A stretch of 64,000 nucleotides of DNA from a virus: IMG/VR virus record IMGVR_UViG_3300042862_000163, positions 50,521 through 114,520 of that record, one strand, 5' to 3'. Positions 3,001 to 29,507 of this stretch are shown in pieces. The position numbers and the translations under genes were made by a program. Position 1 is the first letter of the stretch. Each line of letters opens with the position of its first letter. Under the pieces are notes generated by a model. It searched no databases and was not told where the DNA came from. It was given only the letters and a program-made list of their open reading frames with translations.

Positions 3001-6000
3001 GAACAGGAACTATTGTTAATTTTAATAACAAGACTTACACAATAGATCAAGAAGCTCTTCAATCAATGCCTTTAAGAAAATCTAAAGACATGGTTGCATT
3101 CTTAAATGCTATCGGTATAGAGTTTGATCTTGATACATATAATAAATTAAAGTCTTATCAGAAAACAGGTAAAAATGGCTTTAATGAACAAGTACAAAGT
3201 ATATATGCATTCTTTGGTAGTAATAATAATTTGATGAGCATATCAGGTAAGACACTTGATATCGATGGACCATTAAGTAGATTAGCTGAATTATATAATA
3301 CAGTTAACAATCCTTCACAAGAAAGTACATACTTTGGTGTGGAGAATCAACGTATTGGTGCATTTTCAGAAAATAATGCTCCATCTATATTTGAAAATGA
3401 ATTTAATGAAGCAGATACATTAACTGAATTAAAACAAACAAGAACTGAACTTAATGATATATTCTCTGCAGGTAGTCAAGTATTGAAAGAGGGTGGTTTG
3501 TTTTATGATAAAGATGGTAAACAAATAAAAGAATTCAAATTATCTTATATACAAGGAGAAGATAATCAAGATACTGATAAAGGAACTTCTACATCTAAAT
3601 TAAAAATTGGAGATAGATATACATTAGAGATTAATCAAAATCTTAATGGTAAATATTATATATTGATGCCTGCTGATGGATCTACAGAATGGATGATGAA
3701 CATAGGTAACAATGTTTCATTTGATTCTATAGCAGCTGGATCATATACAGACATCAATGCTATATTCAAGGGATACTTGATGGATGACATTAATTTAGCT
3801 TTAGATTATAAAACTAGAGAAAAACTATTAAATGTTGGTGATAAAGCAAAAGAGTTACGTTTCTTCAAAGATATATTAGCTGATGAGCAATTAGAAGCAA
3901 TCAATAAAATGATTGAGGATAATGAATCATTAGATGATATTAAAAAATACATAGATACAAACATAGGTGCTATTAATAATTCTGTAAAAGAATTTATTGA
4001 TGGTATGAATGTAGGAACAAAGAATGTATTAGTAGAAAACAAGAAAATTGTAGTAGGAGAAAAAACATCTAAGTATTTAGATTTAGATGGTAACTTTGCT
4101 AAAGCTAATTCATTAAATAAAAATGCATTAACAGAAAAATCTGTTAATGATATAATTAATTTTGCTAATGTAAATTATATTATTGCTAATATAGAATATC
4201 ATAAGATTTTATTTGGTGATCCTTATCAATTTGCTGTTAAGAAAGATGGGTCTTTAGATCAAACTAAACGTATCAAATCTTGGTTATCTCCTAGAAGAAC
4301 TACATTTGATTCTGCTGAGTTTAATACATTCTTAAATAACAATGCAAATGAAACTGATGGTATTAAAGTAGATGAATATGTATATGATGCTAAAACTAAT
4401 ACATGGACTGGAGACTTAGGTGGTCACAAATTTAAATCTCATACTAATACTATAACTATTAAAGATGTTACTACAGCAGGTAGCTTAGCTAATATCAATA
4501 AATTGTTTGGTGATAATAATGAAGCAGATGCTGTATCATGGTTGATGGATACTACTCACAGAGAAGTTAAACTTAAAAATAAACAATGGGATTTAGAAGG
4601 ACCAGAAGAAAAATTCTTTCAATGGCAAATGGCTTTTACAAGAACAAATCTTCCTGGATATAAGTATTCAAACTCTGCATTAGAAGCTCATGATAAAGCT
4701 TTGATGGAAACTGAAATGCCTAAACATAAACTTGAAATATTAAAACCAATTGTTACAGGTAATAAGTTTAATAAAAATAATTTTGATCAAGTGTTAGATA
4801 AGTTCTCTCAAGTACCTGTCTACTACAGTATGGTAAAAGGAACTAACCTTGAGAAACTTTATATACAAATGATGAAACAACAAATAGGATATGCTATTGT
4901 TGAATCAGGTAGAAAGGTGGGTACACAAGAAAAACATAGTCTTTATAATGGAGATGGTTCATTTAATACTGAAGCTTTTTCTGAAGAATCAATTGTACAA
5001 GTTCCATGGAAAGCTTATGGTATACAAGTAGAAACTGCTAGTAGTGATAATAAAACACAAACTAGAGGATCTCAGCTTACTAAGTTAGCTAGTATGGATA
5101 TATTTGATAATGGAGAAGCATCTAGTGTTGAAGCTGAAAAAGAATACAATAGAAATAAAGACATTCTTGATTTAATGCATTCTAATGGTTACAAAGAACT
5201 TCTTATTGATTTAGGTATAGAAGATCTTGGTACTGAGTTTGTAATGAAAGATGGTACATCTATATCAGAAACATTAATGAGAGAAATGTTAAGAAGAGAA
5301 GTATCAGATAATTCAAAAGATACTCTTGAACTTAATGAAGAAAATCAATTCATTATCCCATTTGAAGCATCCCCTTCTTATACACAGATTAGAAGTATTC
5401 TTTATTCTATGATAGATAAAGCTATTGGTTCTCCTAAAATGACTGGAGGAGCGCATGTACAAATGCCTGCAACAATGCTTGAATCTGCTACTAAAGGTAG
5501 AAGTATTGTTATGAAGAATGAGAAAGGAATTTGGGAGAAGATAACAAAAGAGAAGTATGCTACATTAAATGCTGCACAAAAAGCTAATGTTATGCTTACA
5601 GATGATACATTGAAATTTTACACAAGAACTGAAAAATGGTGTGAAGTTTATATGCCTCATTGGTTTAAAGATAAGTTCAAAGGTAAATTTAAAAATGATA
5701 GAGAATTATTAAACTATCTTAATGGTACAACAGAAGGAAAAGCTATTCTTTCTGGTATTGGATTTAGAATTCCTACACAAGCACTATCTTCTGTTGAGGT
5801 GTTTAGAGTGAAAGGGTTTCTTCCACAATACATGGGAGCAACAGTTGTTGTACCATCAGAAATTACTACTAAAGCAGGATCAGATTTTGATATTGATAAA
5901 TTGAACATGTATCTTAAATCTGTATATGTAGATAGTAAAGGTGACATCAAGTTAGTTAAGTATTTAGATTCTGAAGAAGCTACAAAAGAATTTTTTAGTA

Positions 6001-8603
6001 GAATATATGATGAAACTATTTTAAAAGATATACAAAAGATCAAAGACTCTGATGCATTTAGAGAAGAGTTGTATAACTTTCTTGATCCTACAAGAGTTGT
6101 TTCAGAAGTAGGAGCTATAAGACAACAAGTTTTTTATGATCAAAATGAAGCAATCATTAATGAGATTATATCACAAGCAGATGCTGCTGATAAAGATCCT
6201 GTAGATTACATCAATAATCAGATTCAAATGTTAGCTGGTAAAGAAGCCAAGTTAAATGCTAAATTATTAAATGATACATTAAGAAATAGATATGTTAAAG
6301 AGATGTATAAAAATTCTCTTGAGAATGAATACTATGATTCTCTTGAGAAACTTATAACATTACCAGAAAACTTTGATAGACTTATCTCTCCTATTGATGA
6401 TGCAGGATTAAAAAAATTAGCAGGTGAATTAGATACATTAAGACAAACTGATGAGACTAGTATTCCAAATAGAATTCTTAATAGAAACTTTATGACTTCT
6501 TTAAGAAACTCGTTTGTAATGGGTAAAAAATGGGTAGGTATTGTAGCTGTTAATATTACAAACCTTTCATTGAAACAAAAGAGTCAAGTGTACATTGATC
6601 CTAAAAGATTTCAACTTGTATCTTTAGATGATCAAGTGTTATTAGGAGATGGAACCATAGCTTTAAAACATAATACAACTAAAGTTAATGGTGAAGAGTT
6701 TGTATCTTTATCAGGAACTACAGTGAAAGATTCTACAGAATTAATATCTAACAGATTATCTGGATACGCAACTGCTGTAGTGGATGTAGCTAAAGATGAC
6801 TTTATTACTAGAATTATACAATCAGATCTTGTTATAGGTACATTTATGTTCCTTGAGAATATAGGTGCAGGAAGACAGACAGCTTTCTTCTTGAATCAAC
6901 CTATTATATCTGAGTATTTAAAAATTGTAAATGCTAACAATGCATCTAACTTATTTGATAAAAAGAACATCGAATTAGTTAAAGATAAGTTTGGATCAAA
7001 GGTTACATTTATTAAATCTAGCACAATAAATCTTGATAATTTAGAAAGTAATATTTCTGATTATTATTCTGATGTAAAATTTGATGAAACTAGAAATGCA
7101 GAACAGTTAAAGATATTCTCTGAATTCCTTAAGTATGCTAAAATGGCTGAATATAATTTCAGTTTTACACAAGCTACTAATTATGATACAAGTAGATTTG
7201 GATCTGGAGATATGTTTGCTAGAAAAGAATGGCAAACACAAGCAGCTAAGGATGTAAACATAATATCTTCTGTAGAAAATATACTTAATTCTACTTTTAT
7301 AGGTAAACAATCTAAGTTTATGTCTAAATCAATGCAAGCAATGAGTGCTGTATTTAATCTAGAAAGAGATGACTTGAGAATTATTACAGAAAGTATAATG
7401 AAGGTTTATGGTAAGAACAAGTATTTAAGTCAAGAGAATTTTAATAAAATTTCTAATAAAGCTAAAATGGCTTTCTTAGACTATATTATACAGACTAAGA
7501 CAGAATTGAGTGATAGAACATATGCATTACTTATCAATCCAAAGTCATGTGTTGCTGTTAAGTTAGAGAGAGCAAAAATAAGATATCCATTTATTCAAAT
7601 TCTAAAAGAGTTACAAGTTACTCCATCTGATAGAATAGATGGAGCTAAGAGTATTCAACTTAGAGTTAACGATAAATCTGCTGAAAGTGAAAACTTAAAT
7701 CAGGAAATGATGAGAGAGCTTAGAGATTACAATGAAGAAACAAAAGAACTATATAATGATATTGTATCAGTTGCTATCCTTCAAGGAAGTTATCAATCAG
7801 CAATATCTATAAAGAATATTATTCCTATTGAAGATTATTCTGCTATTGTAACTCCTGTTGTAACTTCTATATCTTCAACAGAATCATTAAAAGCATTCAG
7901 TGAAGGATTCTTTGAAAGAAATAATTTTGATGATCAATTGATTATGCCTAGAGTGATTCCTTTCTTTAAAGAGAAAGTAGAACCAGGTGATGATCCATTT
8001 TCAGAATATAGAAGATACACATCTGATTCATTTCCTACATTAGAAGGATTAGGTCTTGATACAATGGACAGACAAGTTATGCTTATTACAGATAAGTACA
8101 ATCAAAAAGCTATGAATAGTAATTATGTAGCTGTAAATAAAGTTACAAAACTTAAAGATGGTACAAGAGTAGATATAACAACAGGTACCACAGTTACTAA
8201 AAAAGACTATGCTGTAAGACTTTCTAAAGGAGATTATTCTCTAAATGATGTAATAGGATATAAAAGAGTTTTGCTTTCATCAGGAGAGCCATTGAGGATA
8301 TTTGATTACAATGGAAACTTGCAATCTGTATACAAAATGGTTAATCTTTATGGAGATGGTGCTAAGGCTTCAGAATATTACACAACATTTAGACCTTCTG
8401 TTATTGAAAATGGTACAATGCCAGTTAAAAGAGAAATAGAGGATAGAGATATTGTTAACTATTATGGTGGTGAAATTGCAAAAGAAACAGTATCTTTACC
8501 AACAGAAGCACCTACACAAATGACTGGACAACCTGAAGGAATATCACAAGAAGAATGGGATGGTTTATCTCAAGAAGAAAAAAATAAAATAAACGAATGT
8601 TAA
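1..8603 (+). CDS. Giant virion-associated RNA polymerase polyprotein (5' end outside window)
   Basis: The frame is open from base 3 with no stop, and the first candidate start inside the window is a weak TTG at 144, so the protein almost certainly begins upstream. At least 2819 residues are encoded. Counting from the TTG, residues 1914-1918 read DFDID inside SDFDIDKLNMY. This is the triple-Asp metal motif of the crAss-like phage RNA polymerase, which is co-packaged and injected to transcribe early genes (family knowledge). Residues about 150-300 are a charged, Pro/Glu-rich linker. Around residue 550 is EYHEVMEAVW, a degenerate zincin-like patch (HExxE). The end is followed one base later by the next giant gene. 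The polymerase call is strong. The roles of the flanking domains are unknown. Confidence 0.85.
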   Translation, partial: NNRSFNNREAEGIYETIRRIANQTVEQSNTGQAISFNRQFTKFLQNVLYWKSKADTASPNQIGIDVNTLSLNLGNKSFPLAEIDNYKKEIIDHLTDTETFNSINTKTLTDLQSAPFEEWYINQEGNFVSSKWANYQTYLLSSTYPSGKARPIGDTPLSTSIAKPTEAIPYSFQQRYSTITQPDDFNVQVIVATAKKEEKKEEAPAPKTFEFKAGPVEYTSQEDADGNFIVEVERNATTKAVAADTNSLDVVINALKAADKFDASIPKGQEETYVTDFMAMQIAASLKAENLKQQEAPVAEEVVQPMAPPEVVAQQDIEKRKTKVISSEVVEKGSRKGQTRTVTQTNSIEEVEGTLVSVTEYEAKVGDTTVTLGGKTMTVKEFKEEFPLDEDYEGIFEGLDDDAKITVRKVKRTPTNSRFDSIVSIMSAEFGKMDVGTKKNDNTYNAELAALEGGEETNIGKEIIAVAPFNKGTITGKIVSVIENKAKKGLYSIILDNGERVSGSFEDNKFTWIKEEETPPSEFPSGDFRRVGLNDKDRMTDADFEIFKEWAAETLPLIPWEDLEHMITISPNEKAWGVFENGVAKFVKGGLRGTEYHEVMEAVWKGLLTSEQRQALLNEFKNKNGFFTDRQTGKKIPFLEATDLQAKERIMDDFSDFRLGKIPARSLGEFVRRLFNKILNFFKTFNNKPSLKQELFEAINAGKFKEKALSPESITSAPEYRTVEDLTVQQANNFVQDILARASGILFRDGEKGLLFNPQGITGTEMFNKVEEMYIKEGRRQLLSDNAWEQLKERVKDKLRIQGINFNEEEVHNINNDETNKNDYVSDPFTVEGKKSATPAVKFLLSTQIERESTNQESAITLNTPPPSYSEMKVKGFPIKGYKLMDYSRTFATLLDKLSNSSSVSKFTDKLFNLAQDDANYVGVFQKIGGKDKVIPFSEFKANDWRLFIDFMQTFARQKPDALIQYKSIDSVHTGAANLFTANKQTQQYWMENIKTLAKGTGTIVNFNNKTYTIDQEALQSMPLRKSKDMVAFLNAIGIEFDLDTYNKLKSYQKTGKNGFNEQVQSIYAFFGSNNNLMSISGKTLDIDGPLSRLAELYNTVNNPSQESTYFGVENQRIGAFSENNAPSIFENEFNEADTLTELKQTRTELNDIFSAGSQVLKEGGLFYDKDGKQIKEFKLSYIQGEDNQDTDKGTSTSKLKIGDRYTLEINQNLNGKYYILMPADGSTEWMMNIGNNVSFDSIAAGSYTDINAIFKGYLMDDINLALDYKTREKLLNVGDKAKELRFFKDILADEQLEAINKMIEDNESLDDIKKYIDTNIGAINNSVKEFIDGMNVGTKNVLVENKKIVVGEKTSKYLDLDGNFAKANSLNKNALTEKSVNDIINFANVNYIIANIEYHKILFGDPYQFAVKKDGSLDQTKRIKSWLSPRRTTFDSAEFNTFLNNNANETDGIKVDEYVYDAKTNTWTGDLGGHKFKSHTNTITIKDVTTAGSLANINKLFGDNNEADAVSWLMDTTHREVKLKNKQWDLEGPEEKFFQWQMAFTRTNLPGYKYSNSALEAHDKALMETEMPKHKLEILKPIVTGNKFNKNNFDQVLDKFSQVPVYYSMVKGTNLEKLYIQMMKQQIGYAIVESGRKVGTQEKHSLYNGDGSFNTEAFSEESIVQVPWKAYGIQVETASSDNKTQTRGSQLTKLASMDIFDNGEASSVEAEKEYNRNKDILDLMHSNGYKELLIDLGIEDLGTEFVMKDGTSISETLMREMLRREVSDNSKDTLELNEENQFIIPFEASPSYTQIRSILYSMIDKAIGSPKMTGGAHVQMPATMLESATKGRSIVMKNEKGIWEKITKEKYATLNAAQKANVMLTDDTLKFYTRTEKWCEVYMPHWFKDKFKGKFKNDRELLNYLNGTTEGKAILSGIGFRIPTQALSSVEVFRVKGFLPQYMGATVVVPSEITTKAGSDFDIDKLNMYLKSVYVDSKGDIKLVKYLDSEEATKEFFSRIYDETILKDIQKIKDSDAFREELYNFLDPTRVVSEVGAIRQQVFYDQNEAIINEIISQADAADKDPVDYINNQIQMLAGKEAKLNAKLLNDTLRNRYVKEMYKNSLENEYYDSLEKLITLPENFDRLISPIDDAGLKKLAGELDTLRQTDETSIPNRILNRNFMTSLRNSFVMGKKWVGIVAVNITNLSLKQKSQVYIDPKRFQLVSLDDQVLLGDGTIALKHNTTKVNGEEFVSLSGTTVKDSTELISNRLSGYATAVVDVAKDDFITRIIQSDLVIGTFMFLENIGAGRQTAFFLNQPIISEYLKIVNANNASNLFDKKNIELVKDKFGSKVTFIKSSTINLDNLESNISDYYSDVKFDETRNAEQLKIFSEFLKYAKMAEYNFSFTQATNYDTSRFGSGDMFARKEWQTQAAKDVNIISSVENILNSTFIGKQSKFMSKSMQAMSAVFNLERDDLRIITESIMKVYGKNKYLSQENFNKISNKAKMAFLDYIIQTKTELSDRTYALLINPKSCVAVKLERAKIRYPFIQILKELQVTPSDRIDGAKSIQLRVNDKSAESENLNQEMMRELRDYNEETKELYNDIVSVAILQGSYQSAISIKNIIPIEDYSAIVTPVVTSISSTESLKAFSEGFFERNNFDDQLIMPRVIPFFKEKVEPGDDPFSEYRRYTSDSFPTLEGLGLDTMDRQVMLITDKYNQKAMNSNYVAVNKVTKLKDGTRVDITTGTTVTKKDYAVRLSKGDYSLNDVIGYKRVLLSSGEPLRIFDYNGNLQSVYKMVNLYGDGAKASEYYTTFRPSVIENGTMPVKREIEDRDIVNYYGGEIAKETVSLPTEAPTQMTGQPEGISQEEWDGLSQEEKNKINEC

Positions 8604-18376: not shown

Positions 18377-19390
18377 ATGAAACCAATATTAATTACATGT
18401 CAACCTACAGATACATACTTTGTATGGCAAAATCATATGTATATAGAATCTTGTATAGCTCAAGGATTTAAAGAAGAGCAAATACATATTCTTTTATACA
18501 ATCCTATAGGGAGAGTTTATAACACTAGCTGGGATAAGTTAAAAGAATGTTATCCAAAACTAAATATATTTATATATGAAGATAAAGGAGTTCAGCAATT
18601 TCTTGGAACTTATATTCCTATATTAAGACCTCATATTCTTTGGCAACATTTTGAAGCTTTTCCAGAATTACAAGATAGAACAATTATATATACAGATAGT
18701 GATATTCTTTGGTTAGATTCATTAAATATAAATCATTTATTAGAAGATGATATAAATTATGTTAGTGATGCTAATTCATATTTGAATCATTCATATTTTG
18801 AAAGTAAGTATAGAGATGTACTTCCTGAAAAATTAGAAGAAGCTAAATCAATAGATTTTTTAAAAGGAGTTTGTGATATAGTTGGTATAGATAAACAAGT
18901 TGTAATAGACAACAATTCTAATACAGGAGGTGTACAATATATTCTAAAAGATATAGATGCATCATTTTGGAAAAAAGTTGAAACAGATGTTCTTAAAATA
19001 AGAATATATCTTCAACAGATGAATAGAGATTATTTCAAAGATGAAAATAGTGGTATACAATCATGGTGTGCAGATCTTTGGGCAGTACAATTTAATCTTT
19101 GGTTCTTCAATAAAGAAAGTAAAGTAGCTAAAGAATTAGCATTTGCTTGGGCTACAGATCCAATTATAAAAATAGAAACATATCCTATTCTTCATAATGC
19201 AGGAATAGTTTCTGAAACAGGAAATGGTTATCCAGCTTTCTACAAAGGAAAGTATCATATGGGTACAGACCCAACAAAAGATCCTAACCTACAATTAATA
19301 CTTAATAATGAACAATCAAAGAAGTATTGTACTTGGTATTATGCAGAAAAATTAAATACAATCAAAAATAAATATAACCTTAATTATTAA
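18377..19390 (+). CDS. Putative glycosyltransferase (GT-A fold, DxD)
   Basis: 337 residues. After a Rossmann-like start (KPILITCQPTDTYFVWQNH), TIIYTDSDILWLD gives a D107-S-D109 motif with hydrophobic beta-strand context. This is the nucleotide-sugar/metal site of GT-A glycosyltransferases. It lies between adhesin genes. Its upstream leader shares a 15-bp sequence with the sulfotransferase gene at 22048. Likely glycosylates a surface or virion component; donor and acceptor unknown. Confidence 0.65.
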   Translation: MKPILITCQPTDTYFVWQNHMYIESCIAQGFKEEQIHILLYNPIGRVYNTSWDKLKECYPKLNIFIYEDKGVQQFLGTYIPILRPHILWQHFEAFPELQDRTIIYTDSDILWLDSLNINHLLEDDINYVSDANSYLNHSYFESKYRDVLPEKLEEAKSIDFLKGVCDIVGIDKQVVIDNNSNTGGVQYILKDIDASFWKKVETDVLKIRIYLQQMNRDYFKDENSGIQSWCADLWAVQFNLWFFNKESKVAKELAFAWATDPIIKIETYPILHNAGIVSETGNGYPAFYKGKYHMGTDPTKDPNLQLILNNEQSKKYCTWYYAEKLNTIKNKYNLNY

Positions 19391-19576: not shown

Positions 19577-19990
19577 ATGGCACTAAAATCACTATTTCCA
19601 GATGACATGATGAAATCATCATCTGAAGGCTTAACGTTAGAAAGTATAGCTGCAAAGCTTACTTACTTCCATGAGCAATTGCATTTATTGCATTGGCAAA
19701 CTAGTTCATATGCAGAGCACCAAGCTCTTGGTGGATTATATGATTATGTACATGATTTTAAAGATGGTGTAGTTGAAAAGATTATGGGCTATACAGGTAA
19801 AAGACCTGGAGCTTATAAAATAGAACCTCTTGGTGGAGCTAATGCTTCTTCTGTTGTTTCTGAACTTATGAGCTTTGCATCATCATTAAAAGCATATGGT
19901 GAAAAAAATGCTTATCACGATATATGTAATCTTGCAGATAGTTTATCTGGAGAAGCGGCTAAAACAAAATATCTATTAACATTATCATAA
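19577..19990 (+). CDS. Dps/ferritin-like phage protein (DUF5856-like)
   Basis: 137 residues. The helix pair HEQLHLLHWQTSSYAEHQAL and LYDYVHDFKDGVVEKIMGY resembles Dps, including an HW pair (His39-Trp40), a later His48 and the D-x3-E pair Asp63/Glu67. The His spacing differs from E. coli Dps, so ferroxidase activity is uncertain. I recall such proteins (DUF5856) in crAss-like structural regions. Whether it is a virion component or protects DNA is not clear. It overlaps the next gene by one base (TAATG). Confidence 0.65.
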   Translation: MALKSLFPDDMMKSSSEGLTLESIAAKLTYFHEQLHLLHWQTSSYAEHQALGGLYDYVHDFKDGVVEKIMGYTGKRPGAYKIEPLGGANASSVVSELMSFASSLKAYGEKNAYHDICNLADSLSGEAAKTKYLLTLS

Positions 19991-20275: not shown

Positions 20276-21598
20276 ATGCCTACATTTATAAAACCAGGAT
20301 TCTGGGAAAAAAGACAAAAAGGATATGACCATTGGTTAAACCTTGATCAATTAATAATTTCATTGAGCCCTCCAGCTACAACTGGTCCATTTGAATACAA
20401 TGCAAATGCAACTGGTATTCAGCCAATATTAGGAACTAATGTTGCAAGTGGTACAAATGCTACAATTGGTGGTGGTATTTATAATACTGCTTCTTGTAAT
20501 TATTCAACAGTTGGTGGTGGTCAAGGTAATACTGCTTCTAATTATCATTCAACTATTAGTGGTGGTTATGGTAATACTGCTTCTAACAGTTATTCAACAG
20601 TTGGTGGTGGTTTAAGTAATACTGCTTCTTCTAATTATTCAACAATTGGAGGTGGTCGAAACAACATTGTTTCTGGATGTTATGCGACAGTTGGTGGAGG
20701 AGGAGGATTTGGATACTCTGGAAACTCTGGTTATCCAGATTATTCTCCTATTTATTCAAGTTTTGGCAACAATGCTTCTGGATGTATTTCAACAATAAGT
20801 GGTGGTAGATGCAATACTGCTTCTAGTTATTATTCAACAATTAGTGGTGGTTCTTTAAATACTGCTTCTGGTTCTAATTCAACAATTGGTGGTGGTAATC
20901 AAAATACCGCTTCTAACGCTTATTCAACAGTTGGTGGTGGTTATAGAAATACTGCTTCTGGTTCCCTTTCAACAGTTGGTGGTGGTTTAAGTAATACTGC
21001 TTCTCAATATGCTTCAACAGTTGGTGGTGGTATATTTAATACTGCTTCTCAATATGCTTCAACAGTTGGTGGTGGTAAATGCAATATTGCCCCTGGTTCT
21101 TGTTCAACAATTGGAGGTGGTTATAAAAATATTACTAGTGATTATTCAACAGTTGGTGGTGGTAGATATAATATTGCTTCTAATTTTACATCAACAATTG
21201 GTGGTGGTCAATATAATACCGCTTCTGGTTTAGGTTCAACAGTTAGTGGTGGCGGAGTGAATTATTATAATAGTAGTGTTTATGGTGCTGGTAATATTGC
21301 TTCTGGCGATTCTTCAACAATCGCTGGTGGTTTGTTTAATACTGCTTCTGGATGTAGGTCAGCAATTGGGGGTGGTTGTATTAATGTTGCTTCTGGTACT
21401 TTTTCTGGAATATTAGGAGGGTCATATAATAACACAAATACTTGCAATTTTGCAATGATTGTCGGTACAAATATAACTGCCGACAGAAGTTGTGCTACAT
21501 TTGTAAATAACTTATCAATCAAAAACATTCCAACTGCAAGTGCTGGTTTACCAAGTGGGTCTGTTTGGAAAAATGGAAATGTATTAAATATAGTTTAA
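20276..21598 (+). CDS. Repeat-rich tail fibre with left-handed beta-roll (YadA-head-like) domain
   Basis: 440 residues. Residues 1-28 (PTFIKPGFWEKRQKGYDHW, then LNLDQLI) are an anchor module shared with the fibre at 24401. Residues about 60-400 are some twenty imperfect repeats of the type STVGGGxxNTAS, 12-14 residues each, a pattern seen in YadA-like trimeric adhesin heads. DNA repeats of about 36-42 bp (TCAACAGTTGGTGGTGG) underlie them. The C-terminus (SIKNIPTASAGLPSGSVWKN) looks like a trimerisation or capping tip. Probable receptor-binding fibre; repeat number may vary by recombination. Confidence 0.75.
   Translation: MPTFIKPGFWEKRQKGYDHWLNLDQLIISLSPPATTGPFEYNANATGIQPILGTNVASGTNATIGGGIYNTASCNYSTVGGGQGNTASNYHSTISGGYGNTASNSYSTVGGGLSNTASSNYSTIGGGRNNIVSGCYATVGGGGGFGYSGNSGYPDYSPIYSSFGNNASGCISTISGGRCNTASSYYSTISGGSLNTASGSNSTIGGGNQNTASNAYSTVGGGYRNTASGSLSTVGGGLSNTASQYASTVGGGIFNTASQYASTVGGGKCNIAPGSCSTIGGGYKNITSDYSTVGGGRYNIASNFTSTIGGGQYNTASGLGSTVSGGGVNYYNSSVYGAGNIASGDSSTIAGGLFNTASGCRSAIGGGCINVASGTFSGILGGSYNNTNTCNFAMIVGTNITADRSCATFVNNLSIKNIPTASAGLPSGSVWKNGNVLNIV
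20462..21410 (+). repeat. Degenerate tandem coding repeats in the beta-roll fibre
   Basis: About twenty imperfect units built on TCAACAGTTGGTGGTGG ... AATACTGCTTCT. Unit length varies between about 36 and 42 bp, with a longer insertion near 20700-20770. All keep the reading frame, so these are protein repeats rather than a CRISPR array. Confidence 0.85.
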
Positions 21599-21672: not shown

Positions 21673-21993
21673 ATGGAAAATTTCACAATTCACATCTTTG
21701 GTTACGGAGAAACACAAATCAACTCAAAAGATTTATCTGTAAAAGTTGCAACTGATACGTTAACTACTGTAACGCCTTTAATCACTGGGATATTTGCTAA
21801 AAAACCAGCAGACAATCCAACATTAATTACAGACTTTCACGCAATTAACCTATTTGGTTATAATGATGTTCGTTGGCAAGTAAAAAATAACGGTTTTAAT
21901 GTTAAAGATGATGTAGAGCTAAAACCTCTTATTGATGCTTTAATTGCTGAATTGCAAACTACCACTACTACTACCACTACTACAGTTGTATAA
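21673..21993 (+). CDS. Small protein with poly-Thr C-terminus (106 aa)
   Basis: 106 residues. A compact alpha/beta body (ENFTIHIFGYGETQI ... DFHAINLFGYNDVRW) ends in nine Thr and Val-Val, nearly the same tail as the otherwise unrelated protein at 19395. Like the adhesin gene it has relatively many CG codons. A strong terminator follows its stop. No family recognised; virion association is inferred from location. Confidence 0.65.
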   Translation: MENFTIHIFGYGETQINSKDLSVKVATDTLTTVTPLITGIFAKKPADNPTLITDFHAINLFGYNDVRWQVKNNGFNVKDDVELKPLIDALIAELQTTTTTTTTTVV

Positions 21994-22047: not shown

Positions 22048-22872
22048 ATGGAAAGAAAATTCTTTTTTAATTCATCTCTACCGAGAGCTGGATCAACATT
22101 ATTACAAAACATAATTGCAGATAATCCAGAATTCTATTGTACACCTACAAGTGGATTTTTAGAATTGATTTTAGCAGCTAAACAAAGTTTTAGTCAATCA
22201 CCAACAGTGAAGGCTCAAGATGATGCATTAATGACTAAAGCATTTCTTTATTTTTGCAAAGGAGCAATGGATGGTTATTTTAATGCTTTAACTGATAAAC
22301 CCTATATATTAGATAAAAATAGAGCATGGGGAATTCATTTACCATTAGTTAAACAATTTACTGGAGAACAGCCTAAAATGGTTTTTATGGTAAGAGACAT
22401 TAGAGCTATTTTTGCTTCTATGGAAAAAAACTTTCGTAAAAATCCAACTAAAGAAAACCATATTCAAAATCCTGATCAGATGGTTGGCACTACCCTTCAG
22501 AAAAGAGTAGAACTTTGGTCTAATAATGTTCCTATAGGAATAACTATGGATAGATTAAAAGATATGATTGACCAAGGAATAGATAAAAAAGTTTTATTTA
22601 TTCGTTATGAAGATCTGATGGACTTTCCAGAACAAGAAATTAAACGTTTTTATGAATATATGGAACTTCCATATTATGAAGGACATAATTTCAATACTGT
22701 AACACAACACACACATGAAAATGATTCATTTCATGGTATATATGGTGATCACGTGCTAAGAGAGAAGTTTGAAAGAAAACCTGATGATTTTGAGGATATA
22801 TTAGGATTTGAGATTTGTCAATCAATAAAGAATGCATATCCTTGGTTCTATAAGAAATTTGGATACGTTTAA
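22048..22872 (+). CDS. PAPS-dependent sulfotransferase
   Basis: 274 residues. SSLPRAGSTLLQ (residues 9-20) is the 5'-phosphosulfate-binding loop, and MVFMVRDIRAIFASM (110-124, with R115 and S123) is the 3'-phosphate-binding strand-helix of sulfotransferases. FIRYEDLMDFPEQEI is the usual later R-Y-E-D-L segment. The enzyme transfers sulfate from PAPS to a hydroxyl of a sugar or protein. Two genes downstream an APS kinase supplies PAPS. It starts a cluster bounded upstream by a terminator. Acceptor unknown. Confidence 0.85.
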   Translation: MERKFFFNSSLPRAGSTLLQNIIADNPEFYCTPTSGFLELILAAKQSFSQSPTVKAQDDALMTKAFLYFCKGAMDGYFNALTDKPYILDKNRAWGIHLPLVKQFTGEQPKMVFMVRDIRAIFASMEKNFRKNPTKENHIQNPDQMVGTTLQKRVELWSNNVPIGITMDRLKDMIDQGIDKKVLFIRYEDLMDFPEQEIKRFYEYMELPYYEGHNFNTVTQHTHENDSFHGIYGDHVLREKFERKPDDFEDILGFEICQSIKNAYPWFYKKFGYV

Positions 22873-22888
22873 TCATAAAAAAACCAAC

Positions 22889-23758
22889 ATGAATATAATA
22901 TTTGATATATCAGGAGGATTGGGTAAAAACATTCTTTCTACAGCAGTATTAAAAGCAATTAGAAAACAACACAGTGATGCTTACATTATTGTTCTTACAT
23001 CTTATCCAGATGTATTTATTTCTAATCCAAGTATAAATAAAGTTATACAACATGGATCTACTACAGGAATCTATAAAGACTATATTATGTCTAAAGATGC
23101 AAAAGTGTTTGTTACAGATCCTTATACATGTTCTGATTACTTAACAGAATCAAAACATTTAATAGAAATTTGGTGTAAGCTTTGTGAAGTTCCTTATGAT
23201 AATGAAATGCCTGAACTTTTTATCTCTAAAGCAGAAATAGAGTATTTTGCTCCTTTTTATAAACTTGATAAACCTATTATGGTTATACAACCTAACGGTG
23301 GTTCACAAGAGCAACCATTAAAATATAGTTGGACAAGAGATATTCCTGCTCCAGTTATAAAAGATGTAATTGAACATTATAAAAATAAATACACTATTGT
23401 ACATGTTAAAAGAGAAGATCAACCTATTTATGAAAATACAATAGCAGCTCTTGATTCATTTAGAAGTATAGCAGTTCTATTAATTTTATCAGAAAGAAGA
23501 CTTCTCATTGATTCTTCTGTACAACATATAGCTGCAGCATTAGATTTACCAAGTCTTGTATGTTGGATAGGAACAAATCATAAAGTGTTTGGTTATGATA
23601 TGCATGCTAATATAGAAGCTAACACACCAGACAAAGAATTAAATTTTGATCATCCATATTTACAAAAACTTCCTTTATTTGAAGATATTTCTAAATGTCC
23701 TTATACAGAATTGAATAAAATATTTGACAGTAAAGATATAATCAAAGCTTTGAAATAA
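22889..23758 (+). CDS. GT9-like (ADP-heptose/LPS heptosyltransferase family) glycosyltransferase
   Basis: 289 residues from ATG 22889; an in-frame ATG at 22832 would lie inside the sulfotransferase gene. The opening FDISGGLGKNILSTAVLKAI matches the GDxLlxTPvlkaLk start of GT9 enzymes. MVIQPNGGSQ and LLIDSSVQHIAAALDLPSL match the C-terminal nucleotide-sugar half (S/DSSxxHxAAAlxxPxv). Probably transfers a sugar to a surface glycan. The stop overlaps the APS kinase start by one base (TAATG). Confidence 0.75.
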   Translation: MNIIFDISGGLGKNILSTAVLKAIRKQHSDAYIIVLTSYPDVFISNPSINKVIQHGSTTGIYKDYIMSKDAKVFVTDPYTCSDYLTESKHLIEIWCKLCEVPYDNEMPELFISKAEIEYFAPFYKLDKPIMVIQPNGGSQEQPLKYSWTRDIPAPVIKDVIEHYKNKYTIVHVKREDQPIYENTIAALDSFRSIAVLLILSERRLLIDSSVQHIAAALDLPSLVCWIGTNHKVFGYDMHANIEANTPDKELNFDHPYLQKLPLFEDISKCPYTELNKIFDSKDIIKALK

Positions 23759-24237
23759 TGGCAATCTATTGGTTTACAGGACAACCTTCACATGGTAAAA
23801 CAACCCTTGCTAATGTTTTAGTAAATAATTTAAAATGGAGAGATAGAAAAGTGTTTCACATAGATGGAGACAATTTAAGAGCCCTTACATTAAATACTGA
23901 TTATTCTAAACAGGGTAGGCTTGATAATATTACAGGAGCTCAAAAGATAGCTAACTACCTTCACAATGAAGGATGGGATGTAGTGGTATCCTTAGTTTCT
24001 CCTTATAGAGAACAAAGAGAACAATTTAAAAAACACATAGGCAATCGTCTTGTAGAATTATATGTACATGCAGAAGAACCTAGAGAAAGAGATAATTTAA
24101 AATCTTTAGATTATGAACCTCCTTTAGAAAACTTTATAGATGTTAACACTACAAATATAGATCCTAAAGATAATATTAAAAACATATTATGGTTAATAGA
24201 AAACGACACATCGCTAAGACTATTACTTATAGAATAA
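23758..24237 (+). CDS. cysC: Adenylylsulfate (APS) kinase
   Basis: 159 residues. P-loop GQPSHGKTTLAN (8-19) is followed by HIDGDNLRALT (34-44) and DYSKQGRLDNI (48-58), the APS-binding DGDNxR ... S/Q-GRxxNI region. VSLVSPYREQREQF is the next conserved segment. The C-terminal part departs from CysC (RDNLKSLDYEPP where RDxKGLYKKA is usual). The reaction is APS + ATP to PAPS + ADP, the donor for the neighbouring sulfotransferase. No ATP sulfurylase is visible, so APS would come from the host. Confidence 0.85.
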   Translation: MAIYWFTGQPSHGKTTLANVLVNNLKWRDRKVFHIDGDNLRALTLNTDYSKQGRLDNITGAQKIANYLHNEGWDVVVSLVSPYREQREQFKKHIGNRLVELYVHAEEPRERDNLKSLDYEPPLENFIDVNTTNIDPKDNIKNILWLIENDTSLRLLLIE

Positions 24238-24392
24238 TAAGTACAATTATAGGATTTGGTATTGTGTATATTTTATCAGGATCTCTAAAAACAGGTGTAG
24301 CTTTTAGTTTTTTAGAAATTATATACAAGCCTGTACAATATTACATACATGAAAGAGTTTGGTATCGATATATTAAATATGGATTAAAATAA
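24189..24392 (+). CDS. DUF2061 small membrane protein
   Basis: 67 residues, overlapping the APS kinase end by 49 bp in another frame. [20 protein letters not shown], then [19 protein letters not shown] and [11 protein letters not shown] match DUF2061: two membrane helices with a conserved YYxHERxW end. In bacteria DUF2061 often sits next to or fused with APS kinase/sulfate assimilation genes (recalled), so the pair looks acquired together. Biochemical role not established. Confidence 0.8.
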
Positions 24393-24400
24393 AAAAAATT

Positions 24401-25132
24401 ATGGCAACATTTATTAAAGCAGGTTTTTGGCAAAAATTATGTAATCCTTGTAATGGTTACAAAGGATGGCTTAATTTAGATCAGTTGATAGAAAGTATAG
24501 CTGGTCCAGGAGTTCCTGGTCCACAAGGTCCTAAAGGTCCTCAAGGAGTACAAGGAGAACAAGGAGTTAAAGGTGACCAAGGTATACAAGGAGACACAGG
24601 TCCTCAAGGTCCTTCAGGACTTACAGGTTTATTTGCTCAAACTGCTGATAGTGCACCTGTAGTAAATACTGCAGTGGAAACAACAATAGTAGGACCAGGT
24701 GTTGGTTCTCTTACTGTTCCTGCAAATGGATTTCAAATAGGAGATAGTTTTACTTGTGCACTAGATGGATTAGTTACTTGTGGAAGTTCAGCAACATTAC
24801 ATATTCGTATTAGAACATTATCTGGAGTGATTTTAGCTGATACAGGTATAATTGATATGGCAGCTGCAACTGATAAATCTTGGATAATAAATTTATATTT
24901 TACAATAAGAACATTAGGAGGAGTAGGTGTTGCATCAATTTCATCAGGTGGATTATTTTCTTATATTAGAAATGGAGGTACACAGTTTGAAGGATATGTT
25001 TTAAGTACAGTTAATACTACAACATTTAATACAACTATTGATAATACACTTGTAATTACAGCACAATGGGACCCAGGTTCTATAGGTAATTCAATAGTAA
25101 CAAGAAACTTTACGCTCACTAAAGTATATTAA
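24401..25132 (+). CDS. Collagen-like tail fibre with shared N-terminal anchor
   Basis: 243 residues. Residues 1-30 ([12 protein letters not shown] ... [12 protein letters not shown]) repeat the anchor module of the beta-roll fibre at 20276. Residues 35-76 are Gly-X-Y triplets ([16 protein letters not shown]), predicted to form a collagen triple helix. Residues 80-243 form a beta-rich tip ([28 protein letters not shown]) like C1q/TNF-type trimer heads. It closes the sulfation cluster. Probably an alternative receptor-binding fibre on the same virion site. Confidence 0.78.
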
Positions 25133-28065: not shown

Positions 28066-28743
28066 TTATTTCAATTGATCATAATAATCATTATTAAAAT
28101 GTGGATGAAGAATAATATTTCCTTTTGTATCATCTAACACTCTATCTGCATGATCTAATATAACTTGATTGTCATTATTTCCTAACCCTGAAACATGGAA
28201 TGTGTTCATTCCCCATCTATATATCATTGTATGTTTTAACTTTGATTCATATATTTTTCCATTATTATGAAATGTTATATCTGCATCTTCTCCATTACTT
28301 GTATTAGGCCATTTAATTCTATTTAAATAATCTTTGGTATATATATTACCATTGTTAATATTGCTTGATTCTTTCTCAAATTTATTATCAACAAAGAAAT
28401 ACATTCCTTCACTTCTATAAATATCAAATCCTGGATTAGTATCTATATCAATTTGTGCATTCTTTAGTGCCCATGGAGCAAGTAAATCATCATCATCTAA
28501 TCTATATATGTATGGATAATTACATTGTTTATATCCCCATTCAAGTTTAGCTGATATAGAAGGAAATCTAGTTTCACAATTGATAATCCTTACTCTAGGG
28601 TGATTATAGATATATTTTATATCTGGATTATCATTAACTATAACCATTTCACATTCTGGTGTGAGTTCTTGTGATATAAATGATTGAATTGCTTCTTCAA
28701 GCAAATGATGTCTTTTGTATGTAAGTGTTAAAACTGAAATCAT
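28066..28743 (-). CDS. GT2-family glycosyltransferase
   Basis: 225 residues. SVLTLTYKRHHLLEEAIQS is the typical GT2 start, MVIVNDNPDI the first nucleotide-binding Asp region, and YRLDDDDLLAPW (residues 80-90) the DxD metal/nucleotide-sugar motif. ATGA overlap with the upstream fucosyltransferase-like gene. It is the last gene of the minus transcription unit, so if read through from early promoters it is expressed late or weakly. Adds a sugar to an unknown acceptor. Confidence 0.85.
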   Translation of the reverse strand: MISVLTLTYKRHHLLEEAIQSFISQELTPECEMVIVNDNPDIKYIYNHPRVRIINCETRFPSISAKLEWGYKQCNYPYIYRLDDDDLLAPWALKNAQIDIDTNPGFDIYRSEGMYFFVDNKFEKESSNINNGNIYTKDYLNRIKWPNTSNGEDADITFHNNGKIYESKLKHTMIYRWGMNTFHVSGLGNNDNQVILDHADRVLDDTKGNIILHPHFNNDYYDQLK

Positions 28744-29507
28744 TTTGGTAGTATTAGTCCGTTATTAAAATATGTTGGTAGTATTGTCCAATCTTTACAA
28801 TATATTTCTTGCCATTTACTTGGACCTTTTGGACCAAACCATGTTTCTGGTGCAATAACTATTTTTTCAGTATTTCTAGATAAATAAGCTGCCCACCAAC
28901 TAAATGATGAATTAGATATAATAAAATGATGACACATAGACATAATCCATAATTGTTCATGTATTTCCCAATCTTCTAGATATATCACATTAGGTAAGTT
29001 TATGTGTTCTTTACACCATGGAATATCATCACTAGCAATAATATATTGTTTTGAAGGAACTAGTGATATTGCCTTCATTATATAATCTAATGATATTACA
29101 GGATGATAGTCTGAATATATTAGATAATCTCCTCTTCGAACATTGATTACTGTCACCTCTGTGTTAAAGATGACAGGAATCTCTGTATGTATTCTATTTA
29201 TGAATTCTTTAGTAGGAGAGAATAAAGATTTAATTGCCTCACTGTATTTGTTAAAATAGGTTTCATCTTGAAAGTATCCTGTATACACAGTAACTTTATT
29301 ACTAATAATATCATTTGGATGATCTATGAAAAAATCTAGTTTTCTAAATATATTATTTATAAAATCATTAGTATGTCCTACTTGATTTGCAGGAATTACA
29401 AGTTGTCTATTTTCATCCATAGCTCTTGCATATGCATTAGCAATCATAAACAAATTGTTACCAAGTCTTCCTCCTAAAGAAGGCATTATAAAATCTTCAT
29501 TTAACAT
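28740..29507 (-). CDS. GT11-family (alpha-1,2-fucosyltransferase-like) glycosyltransferase
   Basis: 255 residues. All three hallmark blocks of GT11 are visible: GGRLGNNLFMIANAYARA (12-29), VINVRRGDYL (120-129, the donor-binding RRxD) and ISNSSFSWWAAYLS (197-210). The enzyme would transfer fucose (or a related sugar) from a GDP-sugar to a galactose-type acceptor. It is paired with the GT2 gene by a 4-bp overlap, so both probably act on one glycan: host surface (superinfection or receptor masking) or virion. Confidence 0.88.
   Translation of the reverse strand: MLNEDFIMPSLGGRLGNNLFMIANAYARAMDENRQLVIPANQVGHTNDFINNIFRKLDFFIDHPNDIISNKVTVYTGYFQDETYFNKYSEAIKSLFSPTKEFINRIHTEIPVIFNTEVTVINVRRGDYLIYSDYHPVISLDYIMKAISLVPSKQYIIASDDIPWCKEHINLPNVIYLEDWEIHEQLWIMSMCHHFIISNSSFSWWAAYLSRNTEKIVIAPETWFGPKGPSKWQEIYCKDWTILPTYFNNGLILPK

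Follow-up and report, generated by a model that had tools for sequence, protein, structure and literature searches.

A probable PAPS-driven sulfation operon in the fibre region of a crAss-like phage, and a candidate third class of ATP sulfurylase encoded by its relatives

The window analysed here is a stretch of 64,000 nucleotides covering positions 50521-114520 of the 114,520-base virus record IMGVR_UViG_3300042862_000163. It contains a cassette of four genes that encode, in this order, a sulfotransferase, a GT9-like putative glycosyltransferase, an adenosine 5'-phosphosulfate (APS) kinase and a small DUF2061 membrane protein (Table 1). An original prediction, made from the sequence, had described them as a sulfation module placed between two fibre genes of a crAss-like phage. 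The phage context is backed by the terminase TerL, which matches those of crAss-like phages (Cellulophaga phi17:2 and phi4:1, and gut crAss phages) and a PHROG terminase family, and by the portal protein gene that adjoins the TerL gene. The four open reading frames (ORFs) are all present in the predicted order between 22048 and 24392, the overlaps of 1 base (GT9-like/kinase) and 49 bases (kinase/DUF2061) are exact, and the genes on both flanks are fibre-like. Comparison with relatives makes 22889 a more likely start for the GT9-like ORF than 22832, so that this ORF probably does not overlap that of the sulfotransferase. We consider the cassette likely to be an operon for sulfation driven by 3'-phosphoadenosine 5'-phosphosulfate (PAPS), for which this phage would draw APS from its host, while in its relatives APS would be supplied by a small nucleotidylyltransferase of the HIGH superfamily (HIGH, from here on).

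Table 1. Features of the cassette and its borders; positions are those of the window.
Feature	Position	Strand	Evidence or remark
Fibre-like protein, UspA1/YadA-type repeats, upstream border	20276-21598	+	PF18792 5.5e-05, 23.5 bits, under the cut-off of 27
106-aa protein directly upstream of the sulfotransferase	21673-21993	+	Kept in L001-L004; phmmer 7e-51 in L001
PAPS-dependent sulfotransferase, 274 aa, TPST-like fold	22048-22872	+	PF13469, PF00685, AlphaFold2 model, Foldseek
GT9-like putative glycosyltransferase	22889-23758	+	Start revised from 22832; PF01075 below cut-off
APS kinase, CysC-like, short form	23758-24237	+	PF01583 1.7e-20
DUF2061 small membrane protein	24189-24392	+	PF09834 1.4e-16
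Junction where relatives hold the HIGH-type nucleotidylyltransferase gene	24180-24240	+	49-base kinase/DUF2061 overlap
Collagen-like tail fibre protein, downstream border	24401-25132	+	PF01391 1.6e-07; phrog_5073 tail fiber 5e-13

On sequence and modelled structure, the assignment of the first protein to the PAPS-type sulfotransferases can be regarded as secure. Its matches to PF13469 (Sulfotransfer_3; 2.6e-14, 54.4 bits) and PF00685 (Sulfotransfer_1; 8.2e-14, 52 bits) are above the curated cut-offs of 27 and 22 bits, respectively. Both PAPS-binding motifs that had been predicted, the 5'-phosphosulfate-binding (5'-PSB) SSLPRAGSTL and the 3'-phosphate-binding (3'-PB) VRDIRAIFASM, are recognised, with P12, R13, S16 and T17 of the PAPS loop, as well as R116 and S124, invariant across 43 relatives. 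The AlphaFold2 (AF2) model reached a predicted local distance difference test (pLDDT) value of 93.3, and its best Foldseek matches were human TPST1/2 (E 1e-9, template modelling (TM) score 0.53-0.57); TPST, an olefin-synthase sulfotransferase and 3-OST were matched with E values from 1e-9 to 1e-5. By sequence and by fold, the nearest solved structures are the human and tick TPSTs. The phage family has in common with the TPST branch the 5'-PSB and 3'-PB motifs, a P-loop-like fold and an (R/K)(Y/F)EDL segment, but differs from it in its length of ~272 aa and an invariant C-terminal half of its own, the TM score being about 0.55. Homologues are also found in the cyanophages S-SRM01, S-SCSM1 and S-SKS1 (26-28% identity), near glycosyltransferase and sugar-epimerase genes in the case of S-SRM01; unlike the phage studied here, however, the two cyanophages inspected have no APS kinase annotated within 5 kb of the sulfotransferase.

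The kinase matches PF01583 with 74 bits (cut-off 21.1), and its best PDB match is a bifunctional SAT/APS kinase (7e-15). The profile searches therefore confirmed both the sulfotransferase and the kinase as members of the predicted families and not as other P-loop enzymes. The kinase resembles CysC in its P-loop and in the DGDxxR, RxxN and SPYxxxR motifs, which (the third as GRxxN) are kept in 18 relatives; unlike CysC, it is about 145-160 aa long and, together with its phage relatives, lacks the canonical lid segment (DVKGLYxxA..GxIxxFTGID), which is present in the haloarchaeal fusions described below.

Regarding the GT9-like protein, what stands of the original call is a conserved gene in the expected position, with a family pattern of G9 G10 L11 G12 K13 ... 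D208 S209 ... H213. The assignment to GT9 is weak: the match to PF01075 (E 0.0099, 15.7 bits) falls under the cut-off of 22, and a PDB search with a 13-sequence profile gave no match. The DUF2061 protein belongs to its family with 61.1 bits (cut-off 23.1). It travels with PAPS-making genes and, in a Ferruginibacter metagenome-assembled genome (L233), it is fused to a canonical APS kinase, which suggests that it may have a membrane role in sulfate activation.

The cassette is not a chance cluster, since it recurs in hundreds of viral contigs. Although a scan of viral contigs with the single sulfotransferase sequence gave no match, its profile version retrieved 329 stretches, and a separately seeded HIGH profile retrieved at least 577. 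Linkage was counted for genes within 6 kb in the best 80 loci of each profile scan, with sequences ≥90% identical removed for the non-redundant sets. Among the 41 non-redundant loci seeded with the sulfotransferase, the kinase was present in 31, the GT9-like gene in 32, DUF2061 in 28 and HIGH in 27, so the co-occurrence of sulfotransferase and kinase in relatives, which the original prediction had left to be seen, is very strong. The kinase accompanied HIGH in 79 of the 80 HIGH-seeded loci (53/53 after redundancy removal), while DUF2061 and a window-type sulfotransferase were found in 42 and 32 of these 53, respectively. A kinase-seeded scan gave 24 viral loci, in most of which the sulfotransferase precedes the kinase and DUF2061 follows it, and homologues of the window's fibre-region proteins were located near the sulfotransferase in 63/80 loci. 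Gene order varies (ST-CysC-HIGH-DUF2061-GT9, GT9-ST-CysC-HIGH-DUF2061 or ST-GT9-CysC-HIGH-DUF2061, where ST is the sulfotransferase). The kinase was also detected beside unrelated sulfotransferase families, namely Sulfotransfer_4 and Sulfotransfer_2 in L007 and Sulfotransfer_2 in L048. This fits the role of a PAPS supplier, which we infer would be expected to keep such varied neighbours.

In most relatives a HIGH ORF of ~133 aa is located between the kinase and DUF2061 genes, commonly with 4-base overlaps, and in one of them (L006) HIGH and the phage kinase form a single fused protein. Neither this gene nor Sat was found anywhere in the 114.5-kb record (G000), where no search for CysD was made; this agrees with the earlier statement that no ATP sulfurylase is present. 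At the corresponding junction, the kinase gene ends out of frame within the start of DUF2061. The closest relative (L106), which comes from another metagenome and whose sulfotransferase is 78% identical, has the same HIGH-less overlapping layout, so the arrangement is a lineage trait; an assembly artefact as the cause of the missing gene was rejected on this basis. HIGH has thus been lost in a sub-lineage that includes this phage. The use of host APS, assumed in the original prediction, fits this particular phage but is not general, given that most relatives encode their own HIGH-type enzyme. A HAD-like ORF of ~115 aa was also seen beside HIGH in five loci (L030, at 5658-6008, L045, L047, L048 and L095), in four of them between CysC and HIGH; it is possibly a phosphatase for a by-product such as 3'-phosphoadenosine 5'-phosphate (PAP).

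HIGH is characterised by the motifs GR(W/Y/F)QPxHxGH ... NPFT ... IS(A/G)TxIR. Its nearest profile is that of NadM-type nicotinamide mononucleotide (NMN) adenylyltransferases (PDB 2.9e-9; hhalign 99.5% for archaeal NadM and 18% for Sat), with which it shares the fold and the GRxQPxHxGH, NPFT and IS(A/G)TxIR motifs. It falls short of both families, however: the L001 member scored about 31-35 bits against NCBIfam cut-offs of 181 and 127 for NadM, and 16.9 bits against a cut-off of 24.3 for PF01747 of Sat. In contrast to NadM, HIGH has lost the NMN-recognition segment (W...VS.) that separates the last core strand from ISxTxIR, has acquired GRGVGY, which is conserved, and R53 (L001 numbering), which is nearly invariant, and lies in a gene context of sulfate activation. 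The AF2 model shows a confident HIGH core (pLDDT 90.7) that matches the cores of NMNAT, CoaD and ATP sulfurylase about equally (TM about 0.36-0.49), so the fold cannot tell NMNAT from ATP sulfurylase; its matches among the library models go by the names 'kinase', 'cytidyltransferase' or NMN adenylyltransferase. The arrangement is reminiscent of bifunctional PAPS synthases and SAT-APS kinases in that a HIGH-fold adenylyltransferase is adjacent or fused to an APS kinase. Unlike in those proteins, the adenylyltransferase of the relatives is of ~115-150 aa and derived from NadM, as opposed to the ~390-aa Sat, and it is absent from the window. In a report on human PAPSS1, mutation of the histidines H425/H428 is stated to abolish ATP sulfurylase activity (PMC11697783).

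Homologues of HIGH in cellular genomes provided evidence on its function. Fusions of HIGH to canonical, lid-bearing APS kinases occur in haloarchaea and elsewhere, with either domain first (L239, L245, L247, L237), and a sulfotransferase lies directly upstream of the HIGH-kinase fusion in L236 and L246. The canonical CysC-HIGH fusion was observed in the haloarchaeal replicons L236, L239, L241, L243 and L245, several of which are plasmids, and the corresponding genomes are devoid of Sat and of full CysD. The order in L198 is CysC-HIGH-(one ORF)-CysQ-like phosphatase-flippase-sulfotransferase, and that in Nitrospirales (L196, L199, L200, L231) is Rrf2-sulfite reductase-CysH-HIGH, with no adjacent kinase; these Nitrospirales genomes have a Sat-CysC fusion elsewhere. 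Out of 50 cellular genomes with HIGH, 47 have an APS kinase, 5 Sat, 2 CysD and 43 neither Sat nor CysD.

The relation with known ATP sulfurylases was analysed in 58 genomes of Dadabacteria (the phylum of G013), of which 33 have a strong HIGH match and 25 have none. The HIGH-positive set contains no Sat and no CysD, with CysH in 30 genomes and the housekeeping NadD in 32; among the HIGH-negative genomes, 8 have Sat, 10 CysD, none both and 7 neither, so that 18/25 have one of them. This mutual exclusion (Fisher p = 1e-9, with no phylogeny correction) is most simply read as HIGH replacing Sat or CysDN as the ATP sulfurylase. Incompleteness is an unlikely cause of the absence of Sat and CysD in the HIGH-positive genome L221 (G013), which is a single 1.59-Mb chromosome. 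In the HIGH-positive Dadabacteria and in the 43 genomes mentioned above, HIGH would take an ATP sulfurylase step to which no other known enzyme can be assigned. From this context we find it quite likely that HIGH (~115-150 aa) constitutes a third class of ATP sulfurylase, which would have arisen from an NadM-like NMN adenylyltransferase through loss of the NMN pocket. Its users would be phages, Dadabacteria, Nitrospirales, marine Bacteroidetes/Marinimicrobia and haloarchaeal plasmids, and many of the phages would hold a complete operon leading from sulfate to a sulfated product. The fusions, the context, the loss of the NMN segment and the fact that the same genomes already have NadD led us to reject a plain NMNAT as the identity of HIGH.

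According to the pathway that we propose, HIGH would convert sulfate and ATP to APS in most related phages, host APS being used instead in this one. The kinase would then produce PAPS from APS and ATP, a step well supported by its family although the lid is missing, and the sulfotransferase, whose predicted reaction is well supported by family and fold, would transfer the sulfo group from PAPS to an acceptor, with release of PAP. DUF2061 could act as the membrane partner of the PAPS-making step. When HIGH is included, the cassette would amount to a self-contained pathway from sulfate to APS, PAPS and a sulfo-product. The linkage of the GT9-like gene and the other glycosyltransferase genes of the window (28066-29507) indicate that the acceptor is probably a glycan of the host envelope or of the phage fibres, most likely one that the GT9-like protein makes or elongates. 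That its purpose might be to block rival phages or to decorate the fibres is speculation.

The acceptor is also where a different interpretation has to be considered, i.e. that the sulfated residues are tyrosines, in the neighbouring fibre proteins or in a surface protein of the host, as with TPSTs or Xanthomonas RaxST. The similarity to human and tick TPSTs would be in agreement with this, and so would the location of the operon inside a fibre cluster, along with the fibre-region homologues near most sulfotransferase loci. Nevertheless, a TM score of 0.53-0.57 does not define the acceptor, 3-OST, a glycan sulfotransferase of the same superfamily, was matched as well, and the GT9-like gene linked in 32/41 non-redundant loci points to a sugar, so we view tyrosine sulfation as rather unlikely. 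CysC homologues are known in other recruited roles: in the Campylobacter O-methyl phosphoramidate pathway, the CysC homologue is a CDP-amidate kinase. The loss of the canonical lid in the phage kinase could likewise reflect the use of another 3'-phosphonucleotide donor by kinase and transferase, yet the linked transferases belong to several bona fide sulfotransferase families and HIGH stands in for ATP sulfurylases in sulfate-assimilating bacteria, which makes this idea highly improbable.

Two further explanations would take the genes away from sulfation. HIGH and the kinase could form a NadR-like pair for NAD salvage (an NMN adenylyltransferase and a ribosylnicotinamide-type kinase), as the proximity of the HIGH profile to NadM and an NADAR gene adjoining divergent fusions in cultured phages might suggest. 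We regard this as very unlikely: the kinase is an APS kinase by profile, the fusion partners in cells are canonical lid-bearing APS kinases, the NMN segment is deleted, and the neighbours of HIGH are sulfotransferases, CysH, sulfite reductase and a CysQ-like phosphatase. Moreover, 32 of the 33 HIGH-positive Dadabacteria have their own NadD, and what they lack instead is ATP sulfurylases. A classical auxiliary metabolic role in host sulfur assimilation and cysteine supply hardly seems credible either, even if assimilatory reduction, too, begins with APS synthesis and APS kinase. Among the neighbours read at the phage loci, neither a PAPS reductase nor a sulfite reductase could be recognised, a sulfotransferase is present, and the cassette sits among fibre and glycosyltransferase genes.

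Several observations do weigh against a PAPS-driven sulfation operon or against HIGH being an ATP sulfurylase. By sequence HIGH is nearest to NadM-type NMNAT, so its assigned activity depends on context, and the missing lid makes the substrate of the phage-type kinase less certain, although not its fold. The evidence on the acceptor is gene linkage, with a weak GT9 membership. HIGH coexists with Sat or CysD in 7/50 genomes, four of them from Nitrospirales, and the Dadabacteria test takes no account of phylogeny, with about three clades involved. Furthermore, in about 16 viral loci the gene after kinase-HIGH encodes a DNA methylase and no sulfotransferase lies nearby, and divergent kinase-HIGH fusions exist in cultured Stenotrophomonas phages, near NADAR and DNA-methyltransferase genes in one case. 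The kinase-HIGH pair may thus have a second use.

This second context, CysC-HIGH and then a DNA methylase, was seen in L033, L035, L061, L087-L103, L009, L015 and L018 (PF01555 in the latter). The cultured Stenotrophomonas phages are DLP_6 and Bhz60 (L273 4623-5354; L274 4599-5339), where the divergent protein is annotated as 'kinase' or hypothetical; in Bhz60 it is located beside NADAR and a DNA methyltransferase. Other divergent kinase-HIGH matches correspond to phages Suzuki, Xanthomonas AhaSv and Clavibacter 33.

Sulfation by PAPS, metabolic genes in phages and the related cyanophage sulfotransferases are already known. In the open-access literature we found nothing on a phage cassette of APS kinase and sulfotransferase, or on a third ATP sulfurylase, and with HIGH the cassette probably holds a new enzyme class. 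If the proposal is true, sulfation becomes a further means by which phages modify the host envelope or their own fibres, and the orphan sulfotransferases of phage genomes find an explanation. HIGH would also supply the first step of sulfate activation, otherwise missing, in lineages where APS kinase and CysH are present and no ATP sulfurylase is recognised, as in most of the Dadabacteria examined.

As for other genes around the cassette, the 106-aa protein encoded upstream of the sulfotransferase (21673-21993) gave no Pfam or PHROG match, and a 337-aa phrog_4417 protein (18377-19390, plus strand) is kept near the cassette in L001-L004. A 137-aa ORF (19577-19990, plus strand) looks Dps/ferritin-like by eye (LHWQT motif), and a protein of similar look is found near CysC-HIGH in L018 and L033. 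Finally, GT2-family and GT11 (fucosyltransferase-type) genes, in tandem on the minus strand at 28066-29507, make up a second glycan-modifying cluster of this phage.

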